DNA of 64,000 nt from Haematococcus lacustris (lineage: Eukaryota > Chlorophyta > Chlorophyceae > Chlamydomonadales > Haematococcaceae). The notes beneath the pieces are model-generated. The model saw only the letters and a list, made by a program, of their open reading frames with translations, was not told where the DNA came from and ran no database searches. Position numbers and translations under genes: made by a program. Within the stretch, counting starts at the first letter, position 1. Each line of letters begins with the position of its first letter. Location: assembly GCA_030144725.1 (NCBI GenBank), contig JASKMD010000026.1, forward strand, positions 8,336,100 to 8,400,099, in the 5' to 3' direction. Positions 39,263 to 55,148 of this stretch are shown piece after piece.

Positions 39263-42200
39263 AGGAACAAACCTGACAGATTCTAGCATTTGTGATGGCT
39301 TCACGCTCTTGATTTCTATGGCTAAAAATCAGACGGACGGTGCCTAGGCCAGTGCCGGAGGACCTCGACAGTGACATTGAGGACCGCGACGAGGCACTAC
39401 AGCCGGACCTCACCGAAGCGCAGCGAAATAGAAAGACCTCCGGAGAGGCCCGCGCTGCCCGCGATAGGGATAACACATACATGTAAGATAGCCCACCTCA
39501 TCGACCACCTCCCGCAAGAGCTTTGGGATGCCTTTCCGGACGACGCTGTGCAGCCACGAGTGGAGGCCATCAGCGAGCGTGGGGTGCTCGCCAGCCTGCT
39601 GTTGGGCTTACTCGTGCGCGGCTTGTTTACCATTCGCGTAGCCGACCCGCTGGGCCTGCACGAACAGCCCGTGTACACAGACATCCCTGTCTCCCAGGCA
39701 GCCATCCCGGACCTGAGCTGCCGGAACCTGTTCCTGCAGCTGTGCCGCGGCCCGCCCGGAAACGGCGCGAACACTCAGCCAAACGCGGCAGTGGCTGCCG
39801 TGCTGGCAGCGCACCCTGACCTTCGCGCCCGCCTCGCAGCAATCCCCCGCCACCTGTCTGACACCAACATGGTGGACCACGTCGGGAAGCAGCTGGAGAC
39901 AGCTTTCAGTAACATGCTCACCCTGCTCTTCGCTGGCAGGCTCAAGAAGTCAGTGTCCCTCGCTGGGGCTAAGGTCCTGGTGGGCACTAAGGAACACCGG
40001 CGCAGATTTGGATTCTGGGGGGTGGGTGGTGGGCACCTGCCAGCCTGGTCAAAGCGGGAGTGCACCTATGTGCGCCGCATGGTGTGCGGGCTGGACGTCA
40101 GCTGGCTGGTGGGGGAGGGTGGGGTGGTGGTGACTGAAGCCATGCAGGCTGAGGTGGCTTTGCAGCGGGGCCTGCTGGGGCTTGAGGAGGGAGAGCTGGT
40201 GAATGATGACTGGGTGGAGGATCCAGTCAACCGGGGCCGGCTGCTGCGCCATGCGGTGCACACTACCTGAGAGATGGAGGCAGCCATGGCAGCCTGGCAG
40301 CTGGATATGGTGCCCTGGCAGCAGGCTGAGCTCACCAACCCAGGGCTGCTGCCAAGGCCCCCCCGCCCCCCCACACCCTATGCCCTCACCCCCACCAGCA
40401 AGTGCCAGGCTCGGCATGTCTTCATCGACACACGGGGCCTATACGGCATGATGCGTGACGCCGGCATGCTGGGGGTGCTGACGGAGGAGGGGGTCATCTC
40501 CTTGAAGAAGTTCAGGAACGGTGCCCTACCTGACCCAGCGGTGCCGGGCAACTTCATTGCAGGGCCCAAAGACAGCCACGTGAGTGCTCCTTGCAGTCAG
40601 GTGCTAGCCAGTCCTCTGGTGCTCCGTCAGCTGCCATGTGTGCTGTCACATGCCTTGTGAGCCTGCAGTCAGCTGCCTTGTGCCTGCCTTGTGAGCCCAC
40701 ACAAGCTAATGAAGTGCCTTGGTATGTGCATATGGTGGCTACAGGAGGCCAACCGATGGAATGCATTGCTGCCTGACCCTCGCCGCCAAAAACTCGCCAG
40801 CCCCAAGCACAGCTTCGCGCAAATCCTGCACACCGATGGAGTCGCCATCAGCGTGATGTTCCTGCGGCCCAAGCCTGCAGCTCCACCCGCAGAGCTGCCG
40901 CGGATGGGCAGGGGCTTGGGCGCAGTCAACCCACTGGCCCATCTTCACGAGGAGTGGCTTGGCGTGGATCCAGGCAAAACCAATATGCCCACTGTAGCGC
41001 ACGAGGAGCGCAGCGCTGCCGGCACAGTGGTGTCCGTGCGGCACTGGAAGCTTACAGCCGGTCATTACTACCGGGACAGCGGCATTACGCGGCAGGCCCA
41101 GGCGACCAAGACGTGGCTGGCCAAGGTGAAGCCGCAGCTCACAGCCCTGTCGCGGGTCAGCAGCAAGCCCAGCTCGCTGGCCTCGTACAGGCGGTTCGCC
41201 AACACAGTCCTGGCGACGTACGACGCCATGTGGGCCGAGGTCTCAAAGAAGCGCTGGGCCAACGCCAAGTTCAGGCTGTACTGTGGCAAGATGCGCGTGG
41301 TGGCTTCGTTCTGGGCCAAGGTAAGGCCCAGTAGCAGCTAGCCACGAGCTAGGCAGCAGCCAACCACAGTCAGCTCACCTGGCCAGCTGCTGTTGCTCCT
41401 GTTGCTGCCTCTGTTGCTGCTGGTATACCCGACCTTACACATGTGTGCCATTGTGTGCTGTACCATGTCTGGAAGCAGGTCAAGAAGCAGGCACAGAAGC
41501 GGTGGCCGGACCGCATCCTGGCCCTGGCCTATGGGGCAGCTAGCTTCAACGGCAGCGGCAGCAATGGCTGCAGGGGTGTCCCAGTCAGCCAGATGCGGAA
41601 GGAGGCAGTGAAGCAATTCGGGGCAGGGCGTGTGGTGCTGGTGGAGGAGTTCCGCACCAGCCGGGTCAGCTCAGCCTACAGCAGCCCCAGTGAGGCCCTC
41701 CCTGGACAGCCGCCAGAGTCCTTCAGGTGAGAGGGTCAGTGGGTGATGGTCGTTGGGTCAGGGTAGTGCTGGGTCAGGGCCTCCCAACTCTGATGTTTTG
41801 GCATGTAAGACCGTCACATGCGACCGATTGCTCCGGGAGCAGGCCGATGGCTTTAGCCCCGCGCGGCATGGCTTAAACGCGGACTCTAGTTACGACAGCA
41901 ACCAGTAGTTGCTTCGATTGTGTTCGGCAGGGTGGTTGGGATCCGCCGGCCACCCTCAAGACATCGCGCAGTGCAGGCGTGCTGTTGGTGCTCTACGCAT
42001 AGGCGCTGCTGCCAGCCCGCGAGGTGAGGTGCACGCAGCAGTTGCCACCTATCCTGCGCCAGCACAGGTTACCCGACGAACATCTGATGATGCAGGAGTT
42101 TCCAAGTACACCTCAGCACACGTAAATGGCTAATCCAAGCTTCAGCTGCGGCTCCGCTGAGCAGGTAGGATTTTGCTGCAAGTCAGAAAATCCAGCCAAA

Positions 42201-42432
42201 ACTCATAGAGATGTCTTAATTTTGAGCTGGCCGCACTTTCAAAGACTACTCTACTCATATGCTCAGCTGTGACAGAAGAAGCAATATTACTCTCAAAGCT
42301 CAGTGAGCCTTAGCGTGTCAATTGCAGGTGCCCAAGCACCACAGAAGTCTCCTGCCCACAGTACCTGCCAGCAGCCCACCCTAGCAGGCCCAGCTGCCTA
42401 CCACCACCTCCCAGCCCCTCCTCACTGCCCTT

Positions 42433-54637: not shown

Positions 54638-55044
54638 TAGGGCACGACTGTTAACGTTAACATCCTGATGTTTGGGCCTGTTAAGTAGTAGATAATGGTG
54701 TCGCGGGTCGTTTTAGGCGGTTTAAAAAGGCGAGGTCGAGGCCCTGGCGCGGGGCAGCTCGAGACCGAAGCCAGCGGACACGGAGCGTAGCGACGTGGCC
54801 GCTGGCTGAGGTCGAGAGCTGTCCCGCGCCAGGGCCGAGACCGAGCCTTTTTCAACCACCTGAAACGACCCTAGCGACTCCATTATCTAGTGTAATTGAG
54901 TTTTACGTAGGCGAAGCTCTATAGGCGCGGCGAAGCCGCGCAATGTGATGCTTCTTGTCACCTGCGATGGTGTTGGCCGGCTGTTACGTGTTCGTTGGCA
55001 ACCACTTTTGTTAAACATTGTTTAACAAACCGGGTCATGCTCTA
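54638..55044. mobile_element. 407-bp MITE in last exon of Fanzor copy A
   Basis: Ends TAGGGCACGACTGTTAA and the inverse of TAGAGCATGACCCGG, with an exact 8-bp TSD ATGGCCGC (54630-54637, 55045-55052), consistent with an Ac-like hAT MITE. Inside, 54690-54895 form a ~100-bp-armed foldback (GATAATGGTGTCGC ... GCGACTCCATTATC). The first three bases form an in-frame stop for Fanzor. Confidence 0.93.
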
Positions 55045-55148
55045 ATGGCCGCCCAGCCATGCCAAAGCCAGGCCAGCCAGGCCAGCAGTGGGTGTACCTG
55101 CCTGACAAGGCCCTGCTGCGTAAGTGGCGGCGCAAGCGGCAGCGGTAG

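Follow-up and report, generated by a model that had tools for sequence, protein, structure and literature searches.

What becomes of a Fanzor-type gene once other mobile elements have landed in it, and what can its remains still tell us about the family it belongs to? The question is raised by a stretch of 64,000 nucleotides from the green alga Haematococcus lacustris (assembly GCA_030144725.1, contig JASKMD010000026.1, positions 8,336,100 to 8,400,099 of the forward strand), hereafter the window, all of which was analysed and in which we designate one such gene copy A. Fanzor1 proteins are described as frequently captured by DNA transposons (Bao and Jurka, PMC3627910), and further context is given in PMC10432273, PMC11423790 and PMC10400597. 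We judge it probable that copy A is a predicted Fanzor-type gene of five exons, split by an element called E4, a hAT transposon and a miniature inverted-repeat transposable element (MITE), and likely dead, with nuclease, amplification and capture steps that are put forward below as predictions. The split gene in itself is ordinary transposon-on-transposon decay; what goes further is a protein family that lacks the C4 zinc ribbon and a fragment of a neighbouring copy that has apparently been captured.

One gene in three blocks

Copy A is one gene, lying on the forward strand in three separate blocks over ~16 kb, and its five exons are set by GT-AG junctions. Exon 1 (39318..40579), with an ATG at 39318 and a reading taken here from 39332, encodes the variable N-terminal half; exon 2 (40745..41320) carries RuvC-I (VDPGKTN) and exon 3 (41479..41726) the repositioned RuvC-II glutamate (EEFRTSRVSS). 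Exon 4 (46366..46443) is followed by a last exon in two parts, the first of which (54541..54637) holds RuvC-III (YDRDVSAALNI), while the remainder, together with the 3' untranslated region (UTR), occupies 55045..55395 and supplies a 31-residue tail ending at the old stop, 55146-55148. The exon blocks proposed in the initial annotation proved right to within about a nucleotide, and their assignment to one gene is borne out by the single spliced frame and by introns shared with a second copy. Its first block, 39332-41726, does consist of Fanzor exons but is not continuous, two ordinary introns lying inside it. From 39332 the spliced frame is open up to the MITE except for one TGA at 40268-40270. 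When the spliced protein is used as query, H. lacustris proteins come out best, at 94-95% identity along its full length; the species accounts for all of the best 120 of 206 matches and, in a second search with a profile, again for all of the best 120 of 195.

The second copy, copy B (59038..60972, forward strand), is 5'-truncated, with a 460-aa open frame in which the catalytic triad is kept. Its exon blocks (59038-59345, 59511-60068, 60228-60475, 60602-60679 and 60780-60972) are separated by the same four introns as those of copy A, in agreement with the earlier proposal that the joined introns of copy A match them, and the 3' UTR of copy A is common to copies B and C.

Three insertions and their empty sites

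The first insertion, E4, lies in intron 3 (41767..46274). The element itself (41774-46267, 4494 bp) is flanked by the 7-bp target-site duplication (TSD) TGCTGGG at 41767-41773 and 46268-46274, and its terminal inverted repeats (TCAGGGCCTCCCAAC) match at 15/15 of the first 15 terminal bases. Three of its open reading frames (ORFs) were scanned for a transposase, with no Pfam family above cut-off. Inside E4, at 44081-44435, there is also a fold-back repeat with 158-nt arms that are 89% complementary.

The second insertion lies in intron 4 (46477..54469) and measures 7977 bp (46485-54461), with inverted repeats that match at 10 of the first 15 terminal bases. Here the 8-bp TSD (GCTGCAAC/GCTGCAAC, at 46477-46484 and 54462-54469) and a C-terminal dimerisation domain mark it as a hAT element, the domain being Dimer_Tnp_hAT (PF05699) in the ORF at 53637-54164 (E 9.1e-13; 48.3 bits against a cut-off of 21.4). 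The third, in the last exon (54630..55052), is an element of 407 bp (54638-55044) between copies of ATGGCCGC at 54630-54637 and 55045-55052; it has the features of a MITE, with 9 of the first 15 terminal bases paired and a long palindrome in its middle. The frame of copy A stops at the TAG with which this element begins.

Because copy B holds a single copy of each target (TGCAGGG, GCCGCAAC and AAGGCCGC), each one substitution away from the corresponding TSD of copy A, the three empty sites can be read directly. The TSDs previously claimed for E4, the hAT and the MITE are thus exact in copy A, with one near-identical target each in copy B, and the statement that two of the insertions sit in introns with intact splice sites also stands, the sites of introns 3 and 4 being unchanged and the same as in copy B. 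This is a repeat-rich region known from a single assembly, and one might suspect that the arrangement is an artefact of it; each of the three inserts, however, has precise junctions and an exact TSD, which argues otherwise, as do two differences between copy B and the captured block described below, and we regard an artefact as extremely improbable.

The insertions had also been called dated. This we do not find supported, because no insert is nested in another and the TSD bases, identical at 23/23, give by arithmetic only an upper bound of ~12% on divergence since insertion. A second member of the E4 family, E4b, lies directly to the right of copy B (61458-66412) with the TSD TGTTAAA, so that a 7-bp duplication is seen twice in this family; the copy A MITE shows what the E4b site looks like when empty.

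A likely dead copy and its divergence from copy B

Set against its relatives, copy A has a shifted frame near 39480 and the TGA at 40268, both of which the initial annotation had pointed out as signs of decay; to these and the MITE stop we add an apparent flaw in the frame between the ATG and 39325, read from the relatives' match against the sequence. Might copy A nevertheless still be expressed, its 4.6-kb and 8.1-kb introns spliced out and its protein ending at the TAG of the MITE? The two invaded introns keep their splice sites, which would permit this, and the MITE stop falls after all catalytic motifs, RuvC-III included, at a cost of only the 31 tail residues, all of them beyond the last catalytic aspartate. 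Against it speak the TGA, the shifted reading frame and what looks like a flaw next to the ATG, and a start below the TGA would give only a C-terminal part, as in copy B. We consider expression very unlikely and copy A likely a dead copy; intact relatives exist, such as P0002 with 789 residues.

Copies A and B differ at 209/2136 aligned sites, inserts excluded. Across 429 aligned codons the nonsynonymous divergence (dN) is 0.07 and the synonymous divergence (dS) 0.21, and most of the divergence therefore arose under constraint. Identity is patchy: runs of 199 nt (40343-40541 of copy A) and 180 nt (40580-40759, which takes in all of intron 1) are identical amid ~10% divergence, and the longest was reached in 0/2000 shuffles. 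Intron 1 shows 0/165 differences, as against 100/806 in exons 2-3. On this comparison of sequences, the patchiness suggests exchange between the copies, which may account for the identical intron 1 as well as a functional or constrained intron does.

A Fanzor-like family without the zinc ribbon

Is the family Fanzor at all? By the motif definition of Bao and Jurka for Fanzor1 (2013; PMC3627910), D-X(125,275)-[TS][TS]-X-X-...-RD, the pattern is present, since D500, T677, S678, R730 and D731 are invariant in the 19 rows of alignment A1 and P0002 has a spacing of 177 residues between D and TS. The DPG of RuvC-I, which with the repositioned glutamate forms the signature taken from PMC10711439, stands in 18/19 rows. 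Among 148 proteins, all 109 matches to E[FY]RTS have the glutamate in its repositioned place; six residues further along, the first zinc-finger position is S or G, never C.

Structure prediction gives a second line of evidence. An AlphaFold2 (AF2) model of P0002 was built from alignment A3, which has fewer fragmentary rows than the A2 alignment used for a first model (mean predicted local distance difference test score, pLDDT, 39.3), now dropped. In a fold search with the A3 model the top seven rows of the PDB were all Fanzors, the next row by VIA lying far below, and the model matched SpuFz, PpFz and GtFz; a Foldseek E <= 0.001 was reached by only two of those seven rows. DPG, the repositioned glutamate and RD, taken together with the fold match, support Fanzor identity; the TnpB profile that the initial annotation had named gives no match above cut-off. 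In 7/9 relatives scanned singly, the PF07282 (TnpB) matches below cut-off cover nearly the entire profile.

A series of observations weighs against this assignment. Copy B gave no match to TnpB profiles; PF07282 (TnpB) matches 10/19 relatives, below cut-off only (best E 0.0051), and yields 0 matches at E <= 0.001 over the whole H. lacustris genome (the control being positive in 6/14 genomes); and no solved Fanzor was matched when the PDB was searched by sequence. The C4 zinc ribbon between RuvC-II and RuvC-III, called strictly conserved in the 2013 definition (PMC3627910), was not found by motif search in the 83/148 relatives with a complete stretch, which contain no cysteine in 25 cases, one in 55, two in 3 and never more than two. 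The AF2 model is itself of low confidence, its mean pLDDT being 49.8 and that of most of the catalytic half <50, and the fold match covers model residues 69 to 603-647, which misses the glutamate and the last aspartate.

These points bring in the proposal that the family belongs to another kind of RNase H-like nuclease and does not derive from Fanzor, to which the lack of a PDB sequence match, the lack of a profile above cut-off and the missing zinc ribbon would all be congenial. Given the motif set and the fold match, we think it very improbable. Judged by motifs and a modelled fold, the family would instead be a C4-less variant that works like Fanzor, one that would not count as a member under the strict 2013 definition. 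Intact members would cut DNA by way of a RuvC domain comprising the DPG aspartate, the repositioned glutamate and the RD aspartate, in a protein that presumably keeps its fold without the ribbon.

Two proteins that do have a CxxC...CxxC pattern, P0112 and P0120, were set aside, because the pattern lies outside their catalytic part; we read them as fusions with other proteins. The window was analysed with 200 kb of flanks (1000 bases read N), 264 kb in all, and a single-frame search, blind to exon-split examples, found no C4-bearing Fanzor stretch there. In a scan of viral contigs with alignment A1, 9 pattern matches appeared and 0 were confirmed. Related subfamilies are also present: a remnant of a second one lies on the opposite strand beside the 3' end of copy A (55427-55555, 55% to P0068), and C-terminal pieces of a third (RWLDRDCNAALNM and similar) occur at 38224-38385 (forward strand) and in flank pieces L012, L013 and L014. 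The more distant subfamily in L012 (left flank), which reads E-H-RTSRVSS, likewise lacks C at the first of the zinc positions.

The 3' UTR as a candidate guide RNA

The 3' UTR of copy B (60973..61225, forward strand) is predicted to form a structured RNA (z -2.1), folds better than 196/200 of its shuffles and is a candidate guide-RNA region. Its 3' limit is similar in copies A, B and C, and the 5' limit of the Fanzor-carrying element was not found at these copies. The guide RNA of intact members would come from this conserved 3' UTR; speaking against it, covariation, drawn from three copies only, gives 1 compensatory pair in 66 and an unfavourable covariation term (+1.35). An Rfam scan of 34500-61500 gave no match at the gathering threshold. 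Copies would multiply within a mobile element, and point decay and later insertions would then kill them.

A probably captured piece of copy B

Downstream of copy B, 1271 bp of it (59901..61171, forward strand) are found again at L001:4739-6009, which is 68739-70009 in window coordinates; 2 mismatches and no gap separate the two, for an identity of 99.84%. The block extends from RuvC-II to the 3' UTR, introns included, and lies in an element that has the same two ends as the copy A MITE, with TTGGCCAT as TSD on each side. The left part of this element is 61434..64000 and it ends beyond the window, at L001:6212 (70212); E4b sits inside it, having entered by insertion, and a stretch of ~2.27 kb interrupts it as well. 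The block is likely a recent capture of a piece of copy B.

The junctions suggest how this may have happened. On the reverse strand of the copy A MITE, the block begins after position 75 and the MITE resumes at 250-253, so that the right junction lies 3-6 nt from the best palindrome centre, at position 256 with a score of 52 (the next best scores 7); the folding of the MITE strand has z -13, with 0/100 shuffles as good. CAC is common to MITE and donor at the left junction, and a 13-nt MITE motif is present about three times at the right one. As a tentative account, which we rate as possible and short of favoured, a relative of the MITE in copy A would first have inserted next to copy B. Its palindromic middle would then have broken at the hairpin tip, and repair would have copied 1271 bp of the neighbouring Fanzor gene, with a transposon carrying a piece of that gene as the outcome.

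The capture is known from a single example, which counts against this account. A local rearrangement of another kind could also have made the block, because A-B identity is patchy and the flanks hold near-identical duplications. Ordinary local duplication, gene conversion or hybrid excision of neighbouring elements, in place of MITE break repair, is accordingly a real if unpreferred possibility. In its favour there are other near-identical pairs in the 264 kb, among them a near-tandem 5.3-kb pair adjoining the capturing element (70940-81851, L001-L002; 98.2% identical) and the left-flank clusters; the identical 199- and 180-nt runs shared by copies A and B; and, for hybrid excision, a published route proposed for Pack-CACTA (PMC13317346). 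On the other hand, the block sits in one element with matching 8-bp TSDs and both ends from one MITE family, and its junction falls within those few nucleotides of the palindrome centre. Among repeats of at least 300 bp at >=97% identity, tandem-array overlaps being filtered, the block is the sole one to touch the window's 64 kb; the flanks have, besides the 5.3-kb pair, a far-left array, a cluster at a distance of 15-24 kb on the left side and, near 105-109 kb, a 0.4-kb pair. In the left flank, pieces L016-L020 hold a long array of repeats, 97-99% alike, with a spacing of mostly ~3.1-3.5 kb.

Other copies in the window

A further copy, C/D (32024..34955, forward strand), retains the exon 4 region (32024-32200) and the end of exon 5 with its 3' UTR (34552-34955), the start of exon 5 being lost. 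Its intron 4, the same intron as is hit in copy A, is split by a different hAT (32249-34550, 2302 bp, TSD AAACATTC); the idea of a hAT hot spot was dropped, there being two cases only. Beside this copy stands an element (29222-31916) with 150-bp perfectly inverted ends and 2395 bp between its arms.

Implications and comparison with known systems

H. lacustris harbours a large protein family that keeps the Fanzor catalytic residues without the zinc ribbon. Because the ribbon is absent and the catalytic residues are kept, searches that demand CxxC...CxxC, or a TnpB profile at cut-off, would miss it, and such a family could serve to ask if RNA-guided cutting depends on the ribbon. The captured piece, 99.84% identical to a likely neighbouring donor, offers a fresh local junction for the study of capture, and hairpin-tip repair, if true, would give a concrete mechanism by which unrelated DNA transposons could capture Fanzor1 genes repeatedly. 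Judged by title and the start of the abstract, none of the papers listed on Fanzor, Haematococcus and Pack-TYPE or hairpin-related gene capture, from a scope largely outside subscription journals, describes this capture.

The second insertion resembles hAT transposons in its 8-bp TSD, CAGG-type ends and hAT dimerisation domain, and differs from them in being 8 kb long and rich in simple repeats. The family shares with Fanzor1, as set out in PMC3627910 and as seen in SpuFz, PpFz and GtFz, the DPG, repositioned glutamate and RD, a helical N-terminal half, introns and a multicopy presence in a green alga; unlike Fanzor1, the H. lacustris relatives examined are without the C4 zinc ribbon cysteines, and their RNA guidance is a prediction. 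The most abundant repeat of Auxenochlorella, likewise a green alga with a multicopy Fanzor, encodes one too (PMC12636532), and the available portions of that report are silent on zinc ribbon and capture. Like the Pack-TYPE elements (Pack-MULE, Pack-CACTA), as far as PMC13317346 and PMC8903248 describe them in part, the capturing element has terminal inverted repeats and a gene fragment, here with introns. It departs from them in several ways: its basis is a tiny palindromic MITE, its likely donor is ~260 bp away, its junction lies near the palindrome centre, and the gene whose fragment it carries is itself of the Fanzor type.
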